Notes under the pieces: generated by a model
Seen by the model: the letters and a program-made list of their open reading frames with translations, nothing else
Told to the model about the DNA's origin: nothing
Databases searched by the model: none
Part shown: one piece after another, positions 6,301-61,901 of the stretch
How the letters are laid out: each line of letters opens with the position of its first letter
How positions within the stretch are numbered: the first letter of the stretch is position 1
Translations under genes and position numbers: made by a program
Source of the DNA: Nitrospirota bacterium
GTDB lineage: Bacteria > Nitrospirota > Thermodesulfovibrionia > Thermodesulfovibrionales > Dissulfurispiraceae
Assembly: GCA_040752355.1 (NCBI GenBank)
Contig: JBFMHE010000004.1
Span: 62,001-126,000 of the forward strand
DNA length: 64,000 bases
Reading direction: 5' to 3'

Positions 6301-7074
6301 TCACTGGCCCAGCCATACCCCTACTATTATAGCAGCAAGCAGGAATCTGTAGTAGACAAAGGCGTTCAACGGGTGTCTCCTCAGAAAGCTGAGGAGAAAT
6401 TTTATGGCGAAGTATCCTGATACGAACGCCGCGGCAAACCCGGCGGCGAAGACGTCGAGAGGATACCCGTCGGGATGCTCCACCAGCTTCCGCCCTTCCA
6501 GGAGGGTGGCGCCCGCGATGATCGGTGTCGAGAGGAGGAAAGAGAAGCGCGCTGCCGACTCCCGCTTGATATTCCTGAAGAGGCCGGCGGCGATGGTGAT
6601 GCCCGACCGCGAGACCCCGGGAACGAGCGCAACCGCCTGCGCACACCCGATGACGAGGGCGTCGAAGAGGGAGACCCGCTCCTTGAGCCGCCTGCCGCGC
6701 TTTTCAGCGACGAGCATGAGCACGCCGAAACCGACCAGCGAGAAGACGATGATCAGGGGGCTCCGGAAGGTCTGCTCGACGACATCGTTGAGAAGAATAC
6801 CGACGACCGCGGCGGGGATGGTGGCGAGCATGATGAAGAGCAGCGTATGCCGGTCTCTCGCGAACAGCTCGATCCAGTCGCGGTAAAAGCAGACGAGCAG
6901 GGCCACCAGGGTGCCGCCGTGGAGGGCGACATCGAAGGTGAGCGTATCGATATCTCCTCCCCATCCGAAGAACCAGGGGAAGAGGATCAGGTGGGCGGTG
7001 CTGCTGATGGGGAAGAACTCGGTGATCCCCTGCACGACGCCCATAATGACGGCTTTAACTACTTCAGTATCCAA
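6301..7074 (-). CDS. uppP: Undecaprenyl-diphosphatase
   Basis: A 257-residue polytopic membrane enzyme of the BacA/UppP family that dephosphorylates undecaprenyl diphosphate so the carrier lipid can be reused in peptidoglycan and LPS synthesis. Both signature segments are present: GITEFFPISSTAHL near the N-terminus and PGVSRSGITIAAGL in the middle. The length is standard. It ends immediately before ftsK, suggesting co-transcription of cell-envelope and division genes. The upstream side is a 240-bp hairpin element. Confidence 0.94.
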   Translation of the reverse strand: MDTEVVKAVIMGVVQGITEFFPISSTAHLILFPWFFGWGGDIDTLTFDVALHGGTLVALLVCFYRDWIELFARDRHTLLFIMLATIPAAVVGILLNDVVEQTFRSPLIIVFSLVGFGVLMLVAEKRGRRLKERVSLFDALVIGCAQAVALVPGVSRSGITIAAGLFRNIKRESAARFSFLLSTPIIAGATLLEGRKLVEHPDGYPLDVFAAGFAAAFVSGYFAIKFLLSFLRRHPLNAFVYYRFLLAAIIVGVWLGQ

Positions 7075-30752: not shown

Positions 30753-31055
30753 ATGCCCCGTCCAAAGAAGCCGAGAAAGTGCCGGTGCCCGTTCAAGGAG
30801 CACCAGGGACCGATCTGCAAACCTGTAGGCATGCCCATGAACGAGCTGAAGCAGGTCACGATCTATCGCGACGAGCTCGAGGCGATGCGGCTCTGCGACC
30901 TGAAGGACATGACCCAGCAGGAGGCGGGAGCGAGGATGGGCGTTTCCCGGGGCACGGTCCAGCGGCTCCTCTCGAGCGCCCGCAAGAAAGTGGTCAAAGC
31001 GATCACCGAATGCAAAGCCCTCGTCTTCGAGGAAGAGACGAATACTAAAAGCTGA
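30753..31055 (+). CDS. DUF134 family DNA-binding protein
   Basis: A 100-residue regulator-like protein. The N-terminal RPKKPRKCRCPF and the central helix-turn-helix MTQQEAGARMGVSRGTVQRL, similar to sigma region 4, are the DUF134 signature. Family members are frequently encoded beside NifX-like proteins. The start lies 28 bases after the hypothetical gene. Its last 11 bases overlap the convergent lipid A deacylase gene. Confidence 0.85.
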   Translation: MPRPKKPRKCRCPFKEHQGPICKPVGMPMNELKQVTIYRDELEAMRLCDLKDMTQQEAGARMGVSRGTVQRLLSSARKKVVKAITECKALVFEEETNTKS

Positions 31056-31596
31056 TCGAGAGGAACAGGTATTGCGTATTCAGCCCCTCGTTCTTGTCGT
31101 ACAGGCTCCCGTTGGAGAGGTGGCGGAGACGGTAGGATGCCCGCAGGAGCCGCTTGCCCGCCGTCATCTCTATGCCGGCGCCGGCCATGGCGCTGAACAG
31201 GAAGGGCCCGTCGAGCTCCTTCCCGTCGATCCTCTTCCGGCTCGCATAATTCACCCCCCCGCCTATCTCGATGAAGGGCCGCACTGTTCCTGAAGGCGCT
31301 ATCGCTCGAATAAGGGGAGCGATTCCCGTAATCACCGTCACCCGCCCCTCGTGCTCGATAAACTCGATATCCCCCTCGACGCCGAGACGGAACACCCGCG
31401 AGCCCGCCAGGGGTATGAAGACTGCAGGGGAGATGAGAAACTGCGTGGAGTTGACGCCGTTGAGGTTGATCCCCCCGCCGAGACCCAGCTCAAAAAGACG
31501 CCCCCCCGCCGCTGCATCGCACACAGCGCCGGCGGAGAGGACCAGGATCGTACAGAGCGCAAGCACCATCCCCGACGCGCGGACGACCGTCTTCAT
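31045..31596 (-). CDS. PagL-like lipid A 3-O-deacylase / acyloxyacyl hydrolase
   Basis: A 183-residue outer-membrane beta-barrel with a signal peptide (about residues 8-30). The C-terminal segment YRLRHLSNGSLYDKNEGLN contains the H-x-S-N arrangement and nearby glutamate that match the catalytic residues of PagL, which removes an acyl chain from lipid A. Alternating hydrophobic strands and the terminal phenylalanine fit a barrel. The length is close to PagL. It could instead be a non-catalytic barrel, since overall similarity cannot be measured here. Confidence 0.7.
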   Translation of the reverse strand: MKTVVRASGMVLALCTILVLSAGAVCDAAAGGRLFELGLGGGINLNGVNSTQFLISPAVFIPLAGSRVFRLGVEGDIEFIEHEGRVTVITGIAPLIRAIAPSGTVRPFIEIGGGVNYASRKRIDGKELDGPFLFSAMAGAGIEMTAGKRLLRASYRLRHLSNGSLYDKNEGLNTQYLFLSISF

Positions 31597-32004
31597 GATC
31601 TCCTCCTGTTATAATCCTGTACTAAGCAGGGAAATAAACAGCGGAACGGCTCCGAGGAACTCTCTTTTTTAAGTGTAGCGCTTTTTAACGGCAACGAAAA
31701 GAAGTTTTTCAGGCTTTCGCGTGCACCTTTTACTGCGTTCCGGCCGGTGTCCCGTCGCCGAGGCCCGGGAGTATTCTGGAGTAATGACGCTCCTGAGGCC
31801 CCATGCGCAGCCGCAGGGAAAGAAAGTGACTCCACCACGGTAGCCAAGAAGCAATAAGTCTACCACTGTAAAGCTCACTTGACTAACCGCTCTCTTTTTC
31901 CTTCACATCGGTTCATGTGCCACTCAGATTCATGTATACACTTGTATACCTGTCTGATTATGTATATACTATAAGTGATTCACAAAAGGGTTGCGGGGGG
32001 TGCA
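31597..32004. other. Island left flank: intergenic stretch and composition shift
   Basis: About 400 bases without a convincing gene. Short ORFs here have no recognisable domains. Base composition falls from GC-rich to AT-rich between about 31660 and 31940, marking the probable left side of the TcmP island. The TcmP promoter lies at 31942-31970. No exact flanking repeat to the right boundary (~35160) was found. Confidence 0.5.
31934..31970 (+). promoter_or_regulatory. Promoter with inverted repeat for the TcmP operon
   Basis: TTGTAT (31942-31947), a 17-base spacer and TATACT (31965-31970) form a plausible promoter. GTATAC-ACTT-GTATAC (31934-31949) overlaps the -35 and could be an operator. 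The spacing supports translation from ATG 32005 over the earlier GTG 31975. Confidence 0.6.
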
Positions 32005-32856
32005 ATGCTTGAGAAGCTGCCGCGTTTAGAAGACGACGACCTGATAACGCCTGAGGTCGGACTGTGGGCGGAATTTAAGTACAGGCTCGTGTGGAACTAT
32101 GCAAAGATGTTCTCATCATCAATGAAATCAAAGTGGGATGCCCGGGTGTATATAGACCTCTATGCCGGTCCGGGACGCGCCAGACTGGAAAAAACAATGA
32201 CAATTGTACCCGCCTCTCCGCTGCTGTCCTTAAACATTGCAGATCGGTTTGATAGATACATATTTTGTGAGAGCGACAGCATGAAAATAGAAGCCCTGAA
32301 AAAAAGAGTTGTACGGGATTACGCCGGGATCGATATCCGTTTCGTTGAGGACGATGTCAACAGCAACATCGAGAAGGTTATTTCACAGCTACCTGCTCAT
32401 CGAAAAGATTTCAGAGTCCTCAGCTTTTGCTTCGTCGACCCGTACAGTATCAGAAATCTCAATTTCCAGACCATTCAACAGCTGTCGGAAAAGTATATGG
32501 ATTTTCTCGTTCTCATACCCTCGGGAATGGATGCGAACAGAAACATTGATGCCTATTACATGCAAGAGTCGAGTACGGCTATCGAGTATTTTACCGGCTC
32601 CCCGAATTGGCGGGACGAGTGGCGTGCTCAAAGAGGCCGCTGGGATACGTTCGGTTCGTACTTTGCTGATCTCTTTGGAAGACAGATGAAGGCATTAGGA
32701 TACATTTACGATGGGATTGCCGATATGGAGCTTGTGCGGTCGGTAGATAAAAACCTTCCGCTCTATCATTTGGCCTTCTTCAGCCGCAATAGATTGGGAC
32801 AAAAGTTCTGGAAAGAAGCCAGGAGATATAGCGACGATCAACTCGACCTTCTATAA
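32005..32856 (+). CDS. tcmP: Three-Cys-motif partner protein TcmP
   Basis: A 283-residue protein of the TcmP family, a recurrent partner of DUF5131 (Gp37/Gp68) three-Cys proteins. Its layout resembles a class I methyltransferase: DLYAGPG at residues 51-57 in place of motif I, FCESD at 87-91, and FVDPYS at 143-148 in place of a catalytic DPPY-like motif. That enzymatic reading is inference. ATG 32005 follows a G-rich ribosome site; an in-frame GTG at 31975 falls too close to the -10 box. The DUF5131 gene follows 21 bases downstream. The function is unknown. Confidence 0.8.
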   Translation: MLEKLPRLEDDDLITPEVGLWAEFKYRLVWNYAKMFSSSMKSKWDARVYIDLYAGPGRARLEKTMTIVPASPLLSLNIADRFDRYIFCESDSMKIEALKKRVVRDYAGIDIRFVEDDVNSNIEKVISQLPAHRKDFRVLSFCFVDPYSIRNLNFQTIQQLSEKYMDFLVLIPSGMDANRNIDAYYMQESSTAIEYFTGSPNWRDEWRAQRGRWDTFGSYFADLFGRQMKALGYIYDGIADMELVRSVDKNLPLYHLAFFSRNRLGQKFWKEARRYSDDQLDLL

Positions 32857-32877: not shown

Positions 32878-33606
32878 ATGGCTCAGGCATCGAAGATAGA
32901 ATGGACTCAGGTGACATGGAATCCTGTTACCGGGTGCTCAAAGATAAGCGAAGGCTGCAGGAACTGTTACGCTGAGCGCATGGCGTTGCGTCTCAAGGCA
33001 ATGGGCAGTACACGCTATCGAAACGGTTTCAAACTGGCGCTTCATCATGATCTGGTAGATTTGCCCCTCCGCTGGAAAAAACCCAAGATCATCTTCGTAA
33101 ACTCAATGAGCGACCTCTTCCATAAAGATGTTCCTTTGTCATTTATAAACAATGTGTTCACGACTATGAGCGAGGCACGCTGGCATGTATTTCAAATTGT
33201 GACGAAGAGAGCCGAGCGGCTTTCGGAGATATCAAACAAAGTCTCCTGGTCTCCGAACGTGTGGGTCGGCGTAACCGTTGAATCAAACAACTATCTATCT
33301 AGGATAGATGAACTCAGAAAAGTTCCTGCCTCAGTCAGATTCATCTCAATAGAACCGCTACTATCCGATCTGCCGGATCTCTCACTTGAAGGAATCGACT
33401 GGGTCATCGTCGGTGGTGAGTCAGGCCCGAAGAGCAGAGCCATGAAAGCCGAATGGGTGCGTGATATTAGAGAGCAATGCATCAAAACTAATGTCCCTTT
33501 CTTCTTCAAACAGTGGGGAGGGTTCAGGAAATCTAAAAGCGGCAGGATGCTGGATGGCTGCGTATGGGACGAGATGCCAGCAATGGTACCTACAGGGGCG
33601 GTTTAG
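32878..33606 (+). CDS. DUF5131 / phage Gp37-Gp68 family three-Cys-motif protein
   Basis: A 242-residue protein with the family N-terminus [16 protein letters not shown] and cysteines C20, C27 and C30 in [15 protein letters not shown]. That spacing recalls, but does not equal, the radical-SAM C-x3-C-x2-C motif. Later segments [28 protein letters not shown] and [10 protein letters not shown] suggest a TIM-barrel-like fold related to radical SAM enzymes (inference). AAGGAGA precedes the ATG. It is always the natural partner of TcmP-type genes; the reaction is unknown. Confidence 0.82.
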
Positions 33607-33696
33607 GAGAGGTAGTTCAAGAGAAACCAGTATCTAAAAGAGAGAGATGCTATAATCCGATGGGTAAATAGCTACATTTCGATGAGCGAGGGGGAT

Positions 33697-35160
33697 ATGA
33701 ATATTTCCAAGTTATCTTTTGGCGCACCCGCTGCTGAACGTGATATTGAGAAAGGACTTATTGAGTATTTCGTTGAGTCTGATGCTTATCGTCGTATTTT
33801 TAATAGGGAGAAGTTCATTTTATTGGGAAATAGAGGCTCAGGGAAGAGCGCCATTTTTAAAATCTTAGCAGAGAAGGAAAAAAATGCGGGCACTTTGGTT
33901 ATTGAGCTTTCACCAGAGGATTATTCATATGAGATGTTCTCAGGAATAATGGCAAAAGAACATCAGGGATTTTGGGCTAAGCAGGGAGCGTATGCTGCTG
34001 CTTGGAAATATCTAATTTATATCTCAGTTATGAGAAGAGTTTCAGGACGTGGTGGGCTAAAGAGTGGAGCGGCCGCCAAAGTATATAATTTTTTGAGAGA
34101 TAATTTTAAAGGACATCAAGACAATCCACTTGATATTCTTTTATCGTATTTAAAACGTTTTGAAGGGGTTAAAGTCGGACCTTATGAGGTCGGTGCGAAA
34201 ACTCGTGAGTTACAGAAGCTTTATAAATTAGAAGAAATACAATCGCTCATACCGGATATTATTACTCTTTGCAAGCGCCAAAATGTTGTCCTGCTCGTAG
34301 ATGAGTTAGACAGAGGCTGGGACGCATCAGAAGATGCTAAAGCATTTGTGGCAGGTTTGTTTCAGGCTGCTATTAAAATCAATGAGCATGCTCCATCTTT
34401 ACGCGTATTGGTTTCATTAAGAAAGGAGCTTTATGATAATATCCCGGCTTTATATGAGGATGCCCAGAAGTATAGAGATATCATAGAAGAGATTCAATGG
34501 GATGAGCCTATGCTAATGCAAATGGTTACTAACCGGATTAGGTACTCTTTGCCAGAGCTTAAAGAGAAATCTATCGAGGAGTGTTGGAACTCAGTTTATG
34601 CTGAAACTTTAGATTACAGACAAACTAAGTCTTTTAATTATATGGTTGATCGCACTCTCTATAGACCTCGTGAAATAATCCAATTCTGTACTGAAACATC
34701 GCTCAAGGCAAGAGAGGTTAACTCGTGGCCTATCGACTATGATATTATCAGTAAGACCGAAGTAAAATATTCAGAAGATCGTGCTAAAGATATTGCTGCG
34801 GAATATAGGTTCCAGTATCCTGGCCTGTTAAAGGTGTTTGAGATCTTTCGTGGACTCTCCTACAATTTAGATCGCGACGGTCTGGAGCTACTGTGCCTAG
34901 GAATAACAATGGAAGAGTACAACGTTGATGAGGCGTCATCTTGGTGTCACAATCAGTCGCCTGAATTTCTAATTGAGGTATTATGGAGGATCGGATTTCT
35001 CAGGGCCCAAGCCGTGGGAGGAGTAAAAGGATTGAGAAGGAGTGGCAGCTCTTATCTCGGCCCCCATCAAATATCAAATCTCAATCTCCATACTATTTCT
35101 CGATTTCATGTTCATCCCATGTTTCGTAGTTTTCTTGCCATGAAAGAATCGCGGACTTGA
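33697..35160 (+). CDS. P-loop ATPase, Sll1717-like family
   Basis: A 487-residue ATPase encoded by clearly AT-rich DNA. Walker A is GNRGSGKS at residues 44-51 and Walker B is VVLLVDELDRG at 197-207. A helical C-terminal region without recognised domain follows, ending near HPMFRSFLAMKESRT. The architecture recalls signal-transducing NTPases found near mobile or defence genes. ATG 33697 is preferred over 33682 because GAGGGGGAT lies just before it. It ends the island: the MFS remnant resumes within a few bases of its stop codon. Its link to TcmP and DUF5131 is by position and composition. Confidence 0.78.
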   Translation: MNISKLSFGAPAAERDIEKGLIEYFVESDAYRRIFNREKFILLGNRGSGKSAIFKILAEKEKNAGTLVIELSPEDYSYEMFSGIMAKEHQGFWAKQGAYAAAWKYLIYISVMRRVSGRGGLKSGAAAKVYNFLRDNFKGHQDNPLDILLSYLKRFEGVKVGPYEVGAKTRELQKLYKLEEIQSLIPDIITLCKRQNVVLLVDELDRGWDASEDAKAFVAGLFQAAIKINEHAPSLRVLVSLRKELYDNIPALYEDAQKYRDIIEEIQWDEPMLMQMVTNRIRYSLPELKEKSIEECWNSVYAETLDYRQTKSFNYMVDRTLYRPREIIQFCTETSLKAREVNSWPIDYDIISKTEVKYSEDRAKDIAAEYRFQYPGLLKVFEIFRGLSYNLDRDGLELLCLGITMEEYNVDEASSWCHNQSPEFLIEVLWRIGFLRAQAVGGVKGLRRSGSSYLGPHQISNLNLHTISRFHVHPMFRSFLAMKESRT

Positions 35161-35310
35161 GGTTACCCAGCTCACCGTCGAGGGAAAAAGGTGGTACTCA
35201 GCGACAATGTCGGGTACCGCCACCTGGAACATCGTGCCGTTGAGCACGGAGAGACATATAACGAAGCCGAGCGACAGGAGAATCTTCCGCCGTGCCTGCA
35301 CCTCATCCAT
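35161..35310 (-). pseudogene. Truncated N-terminus of an MFS transporter (DHA2 type)
   Basis: From ATG 35310 the minus strand encodes about 50 residues typical of a major-facilitator N-terminus: charged start, first helix ILLSLGFVICLSVLNG, then VAVPDIVAEYHLFPSTVSWV. Homology ends at codon 50 (about 35161), exactly where the plus-strand ATPase stop codon (35158-35160) lies; the frame then reads ATPase antisense. The rest of the transporter is missing on both sides of the island, so the gene was cut and its body lost. It neighbours an efflux operon. Confidence 0.78.
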
Positions 35311-35450: not shown

Positions 35451-36812
35451 TCACTTCCCGCCTCCCATTGCGCGCTCTATATTCGCCTGCGCGACTTTGT
35501 AGTCGTACAGCGCCCCGTTGTATGCGGTCTCGGCGTTGCGGAAGGCGATGAGCGCGTCCGTCACCTCTATCGGGTCTCCCACGCCGGCATCATATCTTCC
35601 TGTGGCGATGTCGAGGTTCTCCCGCGCCTGCCGCACCGTCAGCTCGGCGGCGCCGATGCGCTCTTCCGCCTCATTCAGGTTGAGATAGGCCTGCTGTATC
35701 TCGAGCAGGATGAGCTGCCGCAGGGACTGCTCGTTCGCCCTGACCACATCGAGCGTCGCCCGTGCCTCGTCCACCTGGCTCCTGGTGAGAAATCCATTAA
35801 ACAGCGGGAAGGAGACGACGGCGCCCACGCTCCATCCGTCGTCCAGGGGTGTCCGCTCCCCTGATGCCGAATACGACGCGCTGCCGCTCACCGTCGGGTA
35901 GTAGCCCTTGCGGGCGAGCTCGACCGACTGTTCCGCCGCGCGCCCCTGGAAGAGCGTCGACTGGAGGTCCGGCCTGTTGGCATAAGCGCGCGCAACGGCG
36001 CTGTCGAGCGATATATCGTATTTGGCGAAAGAGAGGCTGTCCTCCACCCTGAACTCCGGGGCGGTGGGGATGCCCATCGCATTCCTGAGCGTCACCCAGG
36101 CGATGCGATAGCTGTTCTCCGCCCGTATCTGGTCGAGCCGCGCAGTGCTCAGGTCGACCTCCGCCTTGGTCACATCGAACTTGGGTTTCAGCCCCACCTC
36201 GAAGAAGCCCTTCGCCTGCTCCAGGTGCTGCCCGAACTGCTTCACCACCTCCCGCGCCACCTCCCTGTTCCGGTCCGCCCGCAGCACGCCGTAATAGGAT
36301 TCCCGGACATTGAGGACGATCTGGTCGGTAACGTCCTTCAGATCCATCCGCGATGCGTCGAAGGTGAAGCGCTGTATCCTGACCTGGGTCGAGGTCCTGC
36401 CGAAGTCGTAGAGATTCTGCCGCAGGGCTGCGGTTCCGCTGAATTCAGAATTCCGGCCGACGATGGTCCGCGATCCGGAACGGGAGGTGAAGTCGGAGGT
36501 GTCGTACCCTGCGGAGAGGTCGATCTGCGGGTAGTAGGAGGCAGCAGCCTGCCCTATCCTGCTCCGCACCGCCTCGACCGAACTGCCTGCGGCGGCGATG
36601 GCCGGATGACTCCGGAGCGCGATCGCCACGCACTGTTCGAGAGTGAGGAGCTCTCCCTCACGCAACACCCCGCCGGCTGTCGCACCTCCTGCCGCATTCG
36701 TCCCGTTCACCGCAGGAGCGGGATCCTGCGCTCCGGCAGGGACGCTCACGACCCCGGCCAACAGCAGCACAACCGACAGCACAATAACAAAACTACACCG
36801 TATGCCACGCAT
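35451..36812 (-). CDS. TolC family outer-membrane efflux protein (second system)
   Basis: A 453-residue TolC/OEP protein. It has a signal peptide with core SFVIVLSVVLLLAGVVSVPAGA, an Ala/Gly-rich linker, then the two homologous helical/strand halves (FEVGLKPKFDVTKAEVDLST and YDAGVGDPIEVTDALIAFRN). ATG 36812 is chosen because AGGAAG lies seven bases upstream; a further in-frame ATG at 36848 would add twelve residues. It is the last gene of the TetR-MacA-ATPase-permease run but is separated from the permease by a hairpin element. Confidence 0.9.
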   Translation of the reverse strand: MRGIRCSFVIVLSVVLLLAGVVSVPAGAQDPAPAVNGTNAAGGATAGGVLREGELLTLEQCVAIALRSHPAIAAAGSSVEAVRSRIGQAAASYYPQIDLSAGYDTSDFTSRSGSRTIVGRNSEFSGTAALRQNLYDFGRTSTQVRIQRFTFDASRMDLKDVTDQIVLNVRESYYGVLRADRNREVAREVVKQFGQHLEQAKGFFEVGLKPKFDVTKAEVDLSTARLDQIRAENSYRIAWVTLRNAMGIPTAPEFRVEDSLSFAKYDISLDSAVARAYANRPDLQSTLFQGRAAEQSVELARKGYYPTVSGSASYSASGERTPLDDGWSVGAVVSFPLFNGFLTRSQVDEARATLDVVRANEQSLRQLILLEIQQAYLNLNEAEERIGAAELTVRQARENLDIATGRYDAGVGDPIEVTDALIAFRNAETAYNGALYDYKVAQANIERAMGGGK

Positions 36813-37130
36813 AAGCAACTTCCTTTCTATCACGTTCACGAAGCGCAATCCATCCTATTCATACCTCACTCCACGCCATAGAGATGCTATGCTCTGTGAG
36901 CGGTATGGTGAGCTTGCAGGAGGGCATGGATGCCCCCCCTTATCTGATAAATGGGCGAGCCCCCACACCTGCCCCAAAAAGACCTTGTCTTTCTGGGGAC
37001 CCCATAGAACAGAAGGGCCCCGAAATGGCGAAGGCATTTCGGGTTGAGGGCAGGATGCTTTCTGAGAATGAGTCGAACAGAGCATAGCATCTTTATGGCG
37101 TGCGCAGATGCAGACGAGCCGATCGAGAGC
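36813..37130. other. Gap between TolC and permease genes holding a hairpin element
   Basis: About 320 bases. Short ORFs on both strands here are readings of the inverted repeat at 36882-37092. Outside the repeat the only support is the TolC ribosome site. An inner perfect hairpin, CCCGAAATG / CATTTCGGG, sits near 37018-37043. Confidence 0.6.
36882..37092. repeat. Large inverted-repeat (hairpin) element, family B copy 3
   Basis: Sixteen-base perfect arms AGATGCTATGCTCTGT (36882-36897) and its reverse complement (37077-37092) enclose about 180 bases with further internal hairpins. GTGAGCGGTAT after the left arm and GGATGCTTTCTGAGAATGAG before the right arm closely match the inner flanks of the 7098-7337 element (GTGAGCGGTAT and GGATGCTGTCCGAGAATGAG), showing that they belong together. 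Confidence 0.75.
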
Positions 37131-38360
37131 TTACTCATACCGCAGCGCCTCTATCGGGTCGAGGAGCGACGCCTTGTATGCCGGGTAGAACCCGAAGAAC
37201 ATGCCGACGACCCCCGAAAAGCTGAAGGCCAGGACCACCGAGAGCAGCGAGACCGTCGTCGGCCATCCGGCGAGGGCCGAAAGGATCTCGGAGCCCGATA
37301 TCCCGATGACGATGCCGAAAATGCCCCCGATCAGCGACAGCGTGAGCGCCTCTATGAGAAACTGCAGCCTGATATCCCAGGTCCGGGCCCCTATCGCCAT
37401 GCGTATACCTATCTCCCGCGTCCGCTCCGTGACCGAAACGAGCATGATGTTCATGATCCCTATCCCGCCCACGAGGAGCGAGACCGAGGCGATGGCGCCG
37501 AGCAGTATGGTCATCACCCTGGTCGACTGCTCCTGCGTCTGCATCATCTGGGTGAGGTTCCTCACCGTAAAATCGTTATCCTGCCTCGGGCCGAGGCGAT
37601 GGCGCTGTCTGAGCAGCTCGGTGATCTGGTGTTCGGCGTCGTCGAGGTCGTCGGCGCTCTTCGCCTTCACCATGATCGTCCTCACCATGCCGGGAAAGGC
37701 GGTCCCGAAGAGCTTTTTCTGCGCCGTCGTCACCGGCACATAGATCACATCGTCCTGGTCCTGCCCGTTCGGGGACTGGCCTTTGCGGTCGAGCATGCCG
37801 ACCACGGTAAAAGGGACGTTCTTTATCCTCACGACCTGCCCCACGGGATCGGCGTCTCCGAAAAGATTGTCGACCACCGTCTGCCCGAGCAGGGCGACCT
37901 TGGCCGCGCTCCGCACATCGTCGCCGGTAAAGGCCCTCCCCGCAGCCAGAGGCCAATCCTTGACCTGCAGCATATCCGGGGTCGTGCCGGTCACCCCCGT
38001 CGACCAGTTCTGGCTTCCGGCGATGACCTGGCTGACGCCGTTCAATACCGGGGCGACATACTGGACAGCGGGGCTCTCGCGCTGTATCGCCTCTGCATCG
38101 GCCATCGAGAGCGTGGACTGCGTTCCCGCTCCCATCCGGACCCCGCCCGAGGTCGTGGCGCCGGGCAGTATGATGATGAGGTTGCTCCCCATGCTCGAGA
38201 TCTGCTCGGCTATCCGCTGGCGCGCTCCCGAGCCCACGGCGAGCATCGCGATGACCGCGCCCACGCCGATGACGATCCCGAGCATCGTCAGCGACGAACG
38301 CATCTTGTTCACCATGAGCGACCTGAACGAAATACTTATGGTAGAGGAAAGATCGATCAT
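37131..38360 (-). CDS. MacB-like ABC transporter permease (second system)
   Basis: A 409-residue permease with an N-terminal helix (about residues 19-42), a MacB_PCD periplasmic domain, and FtsX-type C-terminal helices with the signature ERTREIGIRMAIGARTWDI. It has no ATPase domain; the ATPase is the upstream gene 38487-39170. The order adaptor, ATPase, permease, TolC is a complete MacAB-TolC-type exporter. A GCTGAT-type hairpin repeat lies just before its start. Confidence 0.92.
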   Translation of the reverse strand: MIDLSSTISISFRSLMVNKMRSSLTMLGIVIGVGAVIAMLAVGSGARQRIAEQISSMGSNLIIILPGATTSGGVRMGAGTQSTLSMADAEAIQRESPAVQYVAPVLNGVSQVIAGSQNWSTGVTGTTPDMLQVKDWPLAAGRAFTGDDVRSAAKVALLGQTVVDNLFGDADPVGQVVRIKNVPFTVVGMLDRKGQSPNGQDQDDVIYVPVTTAQKKLFGTAFPGMVRTIMVKAKSADDLDDAEHQITELLRQRHRLGPRQDNDFTVRNLTQMMQTQEQSTRVMTILLGAIASVSLLVGGIGIMNIMLVSVTERTREIGIRMAIGARTWDIRLQFLIEALTLSLIGGIFGIVIGISGSEILSALAGWPTTVSLLSVVLAFSFSGVVGMFFGFYPAYKASLLDPIEALRYE

Positions 38361-38366
38361 ATCCTT

Positions 38367-38483
38367 AGCTCTCAGCCATCAGCTGTCAGCTTTCAGCAAA
38401 GACAAAAGGCACAACGCGCAGAACCGTGCTCCCGCGAAGCTGCCGGCAGTCTGCCGATGGCTGACTGCTGATAGCTGATGGCT
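38367..38483. repeat. Dispersed GCTGAT-type repeat, copy 3, hairpin between ATPase and permease genes
   Basis: Left arm 38367-38397 (AGCTCTCAGCCATCAGCTG onwards) and right arm 38453-38483 (ending GATAGCTGATGGCT) are inverted copies, as in the 22452-22528 copy. It again occupies an ATPase-permease/permease boundary in a MacB-type operon. Confidence 0.8.
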
Positions 38484-38486
38484 CAT

Positions 38487-39170
38487 TCACATCGCCTCAT
38501 CGCTCACGATCCTGCCGTCGACGAACCGGACGATGCGCCTGCCGTACGCGGCGATATCGGGCTCGTGGGTCACCAGCGCTATCGTTATTTTCGACTCGCT
38601 GTTCAGCTTCACGAAGAGCTCCATGATCTCGACGCTCGTCCGGGTATCGAGGTTCCCGGTCGGCTCGTCGGCAAAGATAAGCGGCGCTGCGTTCACCATG
38701 GAGCGCGCGATCGCGACGCGCTGCTGCTGCCCTCCCGAGAGCTGGCTGGTGAAGTGGTGCTCCCTCCCTGCAAGCCCTACGGTCCGGAGCGCCTCCCGCG
38801 CCCGCTCCCTGCGCTCCTTGGGCGGCACCCCGCTGTAGAGCATCGGCAGCTCGACGTTCTCGAGCGCCGAGGTCCTCCTGAGGAGGTTGAACCCCTGGAA
38901 GACGAAGCCGATCTTCCTGTTCCGTATCGACGCGCGCTCATCGCGGCTGAGCTGCGCCACATCTTCGCCGTCGAGCAGATACCGCCCGCTCGTCGGGGTG
39001 TCGAGACACCCGAGGATATTCATAAAGGTCGATTTGCCGGACCCCGACGGTCCCATGATCGCGATGAACTCCCCCTGCTCGACGCTGAGCGAGACATTGT
39101 CGAGCGCAGTGACCGCCACATCGCCCATCCGGTACACCTTCGCGAGCCCTTTCACATCGATGAGCGCCAT
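38487..39170 (-). CDS. ABC transporter ATPase, MacB/LolD type (second system)
   Basis: A 227-residue ATPase with Walker A GPSGSGKST, signature LSGGQQQR, Walker B LIFADEPTGNLD and VTHEP. It is the energy module for the permease downstream. It starts 13 bases after the adaptor stop with a GAGGAGG ribosome site. It is similar to, but clearly distinct from, the ATPase at 20505-21185. Confidence 0.93.
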   Translation of the reverse strand: MALIDVKGLAKVYRMGDVAVTALDNVSLSVEQGEFIAIMGPSGSGKSTFMNILGCLDTPTSGRYLLDGEDVAQLSRDERASIRNRKIGFVFQGFNLLRRTSALENVELPMLYSGVPPKERRERAREALRTVGLAGREHHFTSQLSGGQQQRVAIARSMVNAAPLIFADEPTGNLDTRTSVEIMELFVKLNSESKITIALVTHEPDIAAYGRRIVRFVDGRIVSDEAM

Positions 39171-39182
39171 GTCCTCCTCTCC

Positions 39183-40370
39183 TTAAAACATCCGGGGGCC
39201 TGACGGAGCGCGGCCGCCCTTCTGCTTCTCGAGGGATTCGACGATCACGCCCTGCCCTTCCCGCAGCGCTCCCGGCTGGACTTCGGTGTACATGCCGTCG
39301 CTTATGCCCGTGGTTACCGCAACCCGCTTCGGCGTACCGCTGTCGAGCACCCACACTCCCCTGCCCTTCTCCTTGTGCTGCGGCTGCTGCGGCTTCTGGC
39401 CGGAGGACCTTTTGCGGTCGTCAGGCAGCCGGAAGCGGAGCGCCGCGTTCGGGACCCTGAGCACATCGCTCTTGCTCGAGACGACAATGGAAAGGTTCGC
39501 CGTCATGCCGGGCTTGAGCTTGAGCTCGGCATTGTCCACCTTGACCACCACATCGTAGGTCACCACATTCTGGACGGTGATAGGGGCATTTCTCACCTCG
39601 GATACGCTGCCCTTGAAGACGAGGTCGGGATAGGCGTCCACCGTAAACTCGACCGGCTGCCCCACGGCAACCCGACCGATATCGGCCTCGGCGACATTGC
39701 TGTTGATCTGCATCTTCGTGAGGTCTTTCGCTATGGTGAAAAGCGTGGGCGTCTGGAAGCTCGCTGCCACGGTCTGCCCTACATCGACGCTCCTCGAGAC
39801 GACGGTCCCGTCGACAGGGGAGAGGATCCGCGTGTACCGGAGATTGATCTCGGCCATTCTCAGGGCCGCCTCTGCCTGGGCCACCTGCGCCTTTGCCGCG
39901 CTCACCTGCGCCCGCGCGGTCTCGTAGTTCGTCTCCGCCGTATCCACCTCGCTGCGGGCGATGAAGTTCCTGGCGAAGAGCTCCTTGTTGCGCTCCGCGG
40001 TCCTCTTCGCGTCCGCACGCGCAGCCTCGGCCTTATCCAGGTTTGCCCTCGCCGAGAGGAGATTCGCCCGGGCCTGCGCCACCTGGGCCTCGAAGGTAGC
40101 GGGGTCGATCTGCGCGATCATCTGCCCCTGCCTGACCGGGGAGTTGAAATCGACATAAAGGCTCTTGACGGTGCCCGAGACCTGGGTGCCGACGAGGACC
40201 GTCGTCACCGCGTTCACCGTGCCCGTTGCAGTGACCGAGGCCGAGAGCACTCCCCTGGTGACCTCCTCGGTCCTGAACTTCACGCCGTTTTCCCTGCCCC
40301 CCAGCAGCGCAAACGCGACGGATGCGAGGACTGCAACAACAACCCCTGCCATGATACTCTTTTTCATCAT
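39183..40370 (-). CDS. MacA-like periplasmic adaptor (second system)
   Basis: A 395-residue membrane-fusion protein with an N-terminal anchor (about residues 5-23), lipoyl-like halves around GTVKSLYVDFNSPVRQGQ and LSPVDGTVVSRSVDVGQTV, and a long coiled-coil hairpin rich in Ala/Arg/Glu between them (about residues 95-165). It has the beta-barrel and membrane-proximal domains and a basic, low-complexity segment near PDDRKRSSGQKPQQPQHKEK. It follows the TetR gene by 16 bases, in the same orientation. ATG 40367 is an alternative start. Confidence 0.9.
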   Translation of the reverse strand: MMKKSIMAGVVVAVLASVAFALLGGRENGVKFRTEEVTRGVLSASVTATGTVNAVTTVLVGTQVSGTVKSLYVDFNSPVRQGQMIAQIDPATFEAQVAQARANLLSARANLDKAEAARADAKRTAERNKELFARNFIARSEVDTAETNYETARAQVSAAKAQVAQAEAALRMAEINLRYTRILSPVDGTVVSRSVDVGQTVAASFQTPTLFTIAKDLTKMQINSNVAEADIGRVAVGQPVEFTVDAYPDLVFKGSVSEVRNAPITVQNVVTYDVVVKVDNAELKLKPGMTANLSIVVSSKSDVLRVPNAALRFRLPDDRKRSSGQKPQQPQHKEKGRGVWVLDSGTPKRVAVTTGISDGMYTEVQPGALREGQGVIVESLEKQKGGRAPSGPRMF

Positions 40371-40386
40371 GTCGTAAACTTCCCTT

Positions 40387-40986
40387 TCATTTCACGGTGC
40401 CTCTCATGAAGATATCGACGAAACCCCTGATCGTGGCATGCACATCGATGCTGCGGTATTTCTTGCGCATCAGGATTTCGTTCACATTGAAAAAGGAGAA
40501 CAGCATGCCCAGGTAGGCGCGCGCGGCGGTCTCGGGATCGAATTTGCGCAGGGCCCCCTTCTTCTGCATCTCGCTGAAATAGGAGGCGAGGGCCTTGAAG
40601 ACCTCGTCGACGAAGGTGTGGTACACCGTCTGGATCTTCTCGGGATATCGCTGCATCTCGGCATGCATGATCCTGATGAGGTCTTTCCGCTGGTCGAGGG
40701 TCTCGAGGAAACGGCGCGCGATCACCGTCAGCGCCTTGTCGTACGCCATGTCCCGCACTTCGGGGAGTATCCCCTTGAGGGCCGGCAGGAATGAATAGGC
40801 AGTGATGACCTCTTCGAAGAGCTCTTCCTTCGAGGAGAAGTGGCGGAAGAGCGTCACCTCGGCGATGCCCGCTTCCCGGGCGATCTCCCGTGTCGTCGCG
40901 CCCAGATACCCTTCACGGGAAAACAGCTTCAGTGCTGTTTCGAGTATCTTGTCCCTCGTCGGGACCGCTTCATCCGTATGCTGCAT
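40387..40986 (-). CDS. TetR family transcriptional regulator
   Basis: A 199-residue regulator. The N-terminal helix-turn-helix is GATTREIAREAGIAEVTLFRHF (given in part) within residues about 10-55; the C-terminal ligand domain is helical and ends GFVDIFMRGTVK. It heads the operon for the second MacAB-TolC exporter and probably represses it until a ligand binds. ATG 40986 is chosen because GAGGGAG lies upstream; the in-frame ATG 41034 lies next to the operator-like dyad and lacks a ribosome site. Confidence 0.88.
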   Translation of the reverse strand: MQHTDEAVPTRDKILETALKLFSREGYLGATTREIAREAGIAEVTLFRHFSSKEELFEEVITAYSFLPALKGILPEVRDMAYDKALTVIARRFLETLDQRKDLIRIMHAEMQRYPEKIQTVYHTFVDEVFKALASYFSEMQKKGALRKFDPETAARAYLGMLFSFFNVNEILMRKKYRSIDVHATIRGFVDIFMRGTVK

Positions 40987-41035
40987 ACTGCCGCTGCTCC
41001 CTCTCTCAATACGGCACGGAACCGCAGAAGACATA

Positions 41036-61442: not shown

Positions 61443-61490
61443 ACATTTGAATCTTTTGAATCTTTCCGCTCAATCAACATCCTTGCAACT

Positions 61491-61588
61491 GGGAGTGCAT
61501 AGGGTTCTGGTGTCCCTCCTGGACTTCAAATCCAGTGTTGCCGGCCACAATCCGGCAGGGTGGGTTCGATTCCCACACGCTCCCGCCA
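61491..61588 (+). tRNA. selC: Selenocysteine tRNA (anticodon TCA)
   Basis: A 98-base tRNA with encoded CCA. The acceptor GGGAGTG pairs with CGCTCCC, discriminator G. The D arm is AGGG/CCCT; the anticodon arm CTGGA-CTTCAAA-TCCAG has anticodon TCA. The long variable arm GCCGG/CCGGC and the T arm GTGGG-TTCGATT-CCCAC complete it. TCA decodes UGA, and the long variable arm is diagnostic for tRNA-Sec. Its 3' end is duplicated at 62857-62884. The hydrogenase and Hdr genes of this window use cysteine, so its client proteins lie elsewhere. Confidence 0.95.
61561..61588 (+). repeat. Attachment-site repeat, proximal copy (within tRNA-Sec)
   Basis: The 28 bases from the T arm through CCA; identical to 62857-62884. 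This copy completes the functional tRNA. Confidence 0.8.
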
Positions 61589-61655
61589 CTCCTGCCTTAT
61601 AATTCAAGTGGTTCATTAATTTCAACTCTATGTCCCGGATATGTCCAGGGGGTTG

Positions 61656-61901
61656 TTCAATCGTCAACTGCCCTATCTTGGCGTGCAAGGCCTTAACGTC
61701 GGGGCCGATCTCGTCCTTCTTGCCATTGGCAAACACTTCCTCTGCTTGCTCCAGCATCTGCTTCTTCCATTCCGTGATCTGATTCGGATGCACATCAAAC
61801 CGCTGGGCCAACTCCGAAAGGGTTTGTTCCCCTTTGAGTGCTTCCAGCGCTACTTTTGCTTTGAATCCTGCTCCGTGATTCCTTCTCGGTCTTCTTGCCA
61901 T
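61656..61901 (-). pseudogene. IS3-family transposase OrfA remnant
   Basis: About 82 codons from ATG 61901 read like an IS3/IS911 Orf[21 protein letters not shown], then a helix-turn-helix around [20 protein letters not shown] and [18 protein letters not shown]. After this the frame runs into unrelated sequence and the antisense of the tRNA. The downstream catalytic OrfB is absent, so the insertion sequence is dead. Confidence 0.75.

Follow-up and report, generated by a model that had tools for sequence, protein, structure and literature searches.

The PADLOC collection holds PDC-M41 and PDC-M30, modules of TcmP and DUF5131 that stand there as mere candidate defence modules. P-loop ATPases of the Sll1717 family are captured by the model NF047389, and the DHA2 group of MFS efflux transporters includes the Tet(L) and EmrB types. 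Our literature searches found no paper on DUF5131 and none on Sll1717. In the window, that is, the whole 64 kb stretch of DNA analysed here, relatives of all these families lie side by side. TcmP, a three-Cys-motif partner protein, is encoded on the plus strand at 31975-32856 (the start may be the ATG at 32005) and matches TIGR04474 at 1.5e-38 and PDC-M41A at 1.4e-26. The adjacent DUF5131 gene, at 32878-33606 on the same strand, matches PF07505 at 2.9e-99 and PDC-M41B at 1e-118, so that the pair is known by profile match. The last gene of the island, at 33682-35160 and also on the plus strand, encodes an Sll1717-family P-loop ATPase that matches NF047389 over the whole model (2.2e-85; 287 bits against a cut-off of 75). 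Its position after TcmP-DUF5131 differs from that in locus L078 (319-7978), where a close homologue has hsdS on one side and an hsdR-like gene on the other, in a type I restriction-modification operon. The ATPase is also no part of the TcmP-DUF5131 pair of the sister genus (genome G019), which lies at a different locus, shares 78% protein identity with the pair in the window and has no ATPase within the 400 bp examined downstream. Beyond the ATPase lie the first 49 codons of a minus-strand gene homologous to DHA2 transporters (35164-35310), which lacks about 400 codons of the transporter body and is not a functional transporter.

The right junction

The minus-strand open reading frame from the ATG at 35310 reads MDEVQARRKILLSLGFVICLSVLNGTMFQVAVPDIVAEYHLFPSTVSWVTS and then continues in the antisense of the ATPase as SPRFFHGKKTTKHG. 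Searches with NCBIfam models return MFS efflux families only (Tet(45) at 2e-4, Tet(L) at 5e-4, EmrB at 0.02), and these weak matches are consistent among themselves. Among 396 genomes of the phylum there are six full-length homologues (E values of 2e-13 to 8e-12), with open frames of 467-544 codons, which match the fragment at 49-64%; two further genome samples yielded no homologue closer than 64%. The residues common to the fragment and these homologues include the first helix and extend to an SWV motif that ends at codon 49 (position 35164), after which the homologues read V/M-T/S-G/A/S-Y and the window T-S-S-P. Since the fragment matches six full-length genes up to codon 49, it represents a true gene start and not a chance reading frame. 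A tblastn alignment with the nearest homologue covers 35289-35155, and homology ends at codon 49-52, short of a body with 12-14 membrane helices. The first-pass annotation had described this N-terminus running into ATPase antisense and the lack of the transporter body in the window, and both observations are borne out here, with the family residues secure to 35164. The body is missing from the whole genome as well: a protein search did not recover it, it is absent among the genome's Pfam MFS_1 matches, and the C-terminal half proposed as a check was not found elsewhere. The same fragment in relatives free of the island, which had been named as the finding that would speak against an insertion, was not seen in any of the 30 other family genomes examined.

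On the other side of the junction, six ATPase homologues from Gammaproteobacteria, Verrucomicrobia, Actinobacteria and Bacteroidetes, 46-63% identical, align to residue 488-491 of 492. The C-terminus was aligned with five of the six, all of which agree for the last time at E489 (codon 35146-35148); the window then reads S-R-T-stop, a tail that is not alignable to the homologues. We rejected a truncation within the ATPase body, as the homologues carry 1-9 unconserved residues past the last conserved Glu and the window carries three. Judged by this alignment, the ATPase is complete to its conserved C-terminus. At the 46-63% level it is present in none of 395 other genomes of the phylum, where the single weaker match is 26% identical, and a search of viral contigs gave no candidate.

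Because E489 is the last conserved residue of the ATPase and V49 the last secure codon of the MFS gene, the junction falls within 35149-35163. This interval contains the ATPase TGA, which lies at 35158-35160 as had been claimed. The proposal that the island edge coincides with this stop codon thus holds as far as the interval includes it, but it is not certain that the TGA belongs to the island side; it may derive from either the ATPase or the MFS antisense. If S51 and S52 of the MFS are native, the ATPase stop could be an MFS serine codon read on the opposite strand; at position 51, half of the homologues are compatible with a native serine.

Host flanks and the left scar

The left host flank is formed by a PagL-like gene on the minus strand (31045-31596; Pfam PagL, 6e-21), whose orthologue at the same place in locus L024 is 51% identical. 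Host intergenic DNA upstream of PagL occupies 31597-31705, and its pairwise DNA alignment with L024 stops at 31705. The right flank comprises a TolC-like gene (35451-36848, minus strand; Pfam OEP, 6e-75), which has homologues in 17 further family genomes, and upstream of it a TetR-MacA-MacB operon, identified by NCBIfam models and conserved in the family (37131-41034, minus strand). Locus L024 belongs to a genome of another genus in the same family (G015) and has no island; it shows PagL-EmrB-EmrA-TolC-MacB-MacA in the same order and on the same strand, with an EmrB of 512 aa and an EmrA of 371 aa, so that the neighbour of TolC in the nearest comparable relative is EmrA. A DUF134-EmrB-EmrA arrangement and an EmrA-EmrB pair by DUF_28770 recur in G004 and G008 (L089, L095). 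The genus under study is represented in this comparison by the genome of the window alone.

No EmrAB pair is present between PagL and TolC in the window. What is found there is an 81-bp minus-strand scrap of an EmrB pseudogene at 31750-31830, which covers codons 86-113 with one frameshift and is homologous at the DNA level to the EmrB of the syntenic locus. It was detected by nhmmer with a profile built from four EmrB genes, and scored 8.8 bits against a best value of -3.6 in 500 dinucleotide shuffles; nothing else in the 64 kb, or in a reversed copy of that sequence, matched the profile. There is no EmrB orthologue elsewhere in the genome, the best match being 27% identical over 131 residues. 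We also considered whether this scrap and the right fragment could be two parts of one interrupted MFS gene and rejected it, as the CGxAW-L-S residues of the scrap are EmrB-like and not Tet(L)-like. Some 100 bp separate the scrap from the TcmP promoter, and the scrap has also lost sequence on the side of PagL.

History of the locus and rival explanations

Base composition sets the block apart as foreign and also divides it. TcmP and DUF5131 have 47-49% GC and the ATPase 40%; GC3 is 0.36 in the ATPase, 0.55 in TcmP/DUF5131, about 0.76 in the MFS fragment, which is host-like, and 0.81 in TolC. In the DNA fetched around six close ATPase homologues we found neither TcmP nor DUF5131. Since the pair and the ATPase occur apart elsewhere, the island is composite and the ATPase is no obligate partner. 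The island of the first-pass annotation is made up of no fewer than two units that differ in origin and travel separately, and the three genes should not be taken for one system on this locus alone.

We read the right edge as the scar of an acquisition of foreign DNA coupled to a deletion of host DNA, with a probability of about 0.83. The truncation and loss of a target gene by insertion plus deletion had been proposed before; the proposal gains support from the EmrB scrap, which is a second scar at the opposite edge. The body of the MFS gene is indeed lost, but the loss is larger than this one gene and takes in most of an EmrAB-type cluster. Remnants of two transporters on the expected strand at both edges indicate that PagL and TolC once enclosed an efflux cluster, which was replaced. 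The ancestor would have carried TetR-MacA-MacB-TolC-(Tet(L)-like MFS)-(EmrA)-EmrB on the minus strand, running toward PagL. The foreign TcmP-DUF5131 and Sll1717-type ATPase would have been joined between EmrB at about codon 86 and the MFS gene at about codon 50, with loss of the host DNA between these joints, and the remaining EmrB toward PagL would have gone either at this step or afterwards. As the left scar is also deleted on its PagL side, more than one event is likely. Illegitimate recombination, through microhomology or end joining, is the most likely way of joining, because no recombinase, repeat or target duplication was found. The comparison with an island-free relative carrying an intact MFS gene next to TolC, suggested earlier as a check, could not be made as no such relative was found, and hence we infer the exact order before insertion and the number of events. 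We likewise infer that MFS and EmrA stood together at the ancestral site, that a single event made the joining, and by which mechanism. The event is of an ordinary kind, a clear scar of DNA gain and loss. Nevertheless, it fixes the edges of a defence-type gene block almost to the base and reveals what the block cost its host, namely an efflux transporter cluster.

A stepwise history, in which deletion or pseudogene decay of the efflux genes came first and the foreign units then settled in neutral debris, the ATPase after TcmP-DUF5131, is given somewhat less than even odds and is partly compatible with acquisition coupled to deletion. The frameshift in the EmrB scrap and its cut on the PagL side fit such a history, as do the different GC contents of TcmP/DUF5131 and the ATPase and their separate occurrence elsewhere. 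However, the MFS fragment keeps an intact frame and is well conserved right to the junction, so that this gene was not visibly decayed when it was cut. The doubly cut, frameshifted EmrB scrap points to some earlier decay; the clean MFS frame speaks for a cut in a gene still whole. That the MFS fragment arrived as cargo of the island and was never a host gene is very improbable: although none of the other family genomes examined has this MFS, the fragment has a host-like GC3, unlike the island, follows on from the TolC operon without a change of strand, and has no match at the closest ATPase homologue loci.

Insertion by a site-specific mobile element, be it an integron, a transposon, a prophage or a tyrosine-recombinase island, would agree with the sharp right edge, and one ATPase homologue locus (L081) does carry a tyrosine recombinase. 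The chance of this is slim, since none of the three island genes is a recombinase, integrase or transposase, the two edges share no direct word longer than 7 bp, which does not exceed what shuffles give, and the sole tRNA call is 26 kb away; nor did we find a target-site duplication, flanking direct repeats or terminal inverted repeats at the island edges. An assembly chimera might be considered for a genome in 44 contigs, but it is barely credible in view of two independent edges, the left one with a remnant of the gene expected from relatives, and of a TcmP-DUF5131 pair whose closest kin is found within the family, in a sister genus. Far from the island, a transposase ORF (HTH_Tnp_1) lies at 61470-61901 in a low-GC stretch at 61-63 kb; the only ARAGORN call, a tRNA-Sec at 61491-61588, overlaps it on the opposite strand and may be false.

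The TcmP-DUF5131 unit and its promoter

The pair is preceded by a promoter, TTGTAT-N17-TATACT, at 31943-31971 on the plus strand, and the same hexamers and spacing recur in the sister-genus locus L118/L129 and in no other locus fetched. Over the -35 hexamer lies a palindrome, TATACACTTGTATA (31935-31948), which is perfect in the window and retained in 13 of 14 letters in G019. Promoter and palindrome, common to the window and G019, put the start of the foreign unit on the left near 31930. The gene before the G019 pair is presumably an LptG-type permease, as it reads like one. A search of viral contigs gave no relative of TcmP.

The palindrome over the -35 hexamer is possibly a damage-response operator. 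Induction by damage is considered because a DNA polymerase IV-like gene directly adjoins the pair in at least one other genome. We regard it as unlikely, taken as a whole, that TcmP-DUF5131 is a small mobile unit with its own palindrome promoter, induced by DNA damage, and that the neighbouring ATPase borrowed its stop from the MFS antisense. The polymerase IV-like gene stands directly after DUF5131 in locus L131; a comparable gene is present in L133, farther downstream. In L133 of genome G039 (6413-6725, after reverse complement), TcmP appears to be internally deleted, with residues 11-35 joined to 201-286, and the DUF5131 gene beside it is intact.
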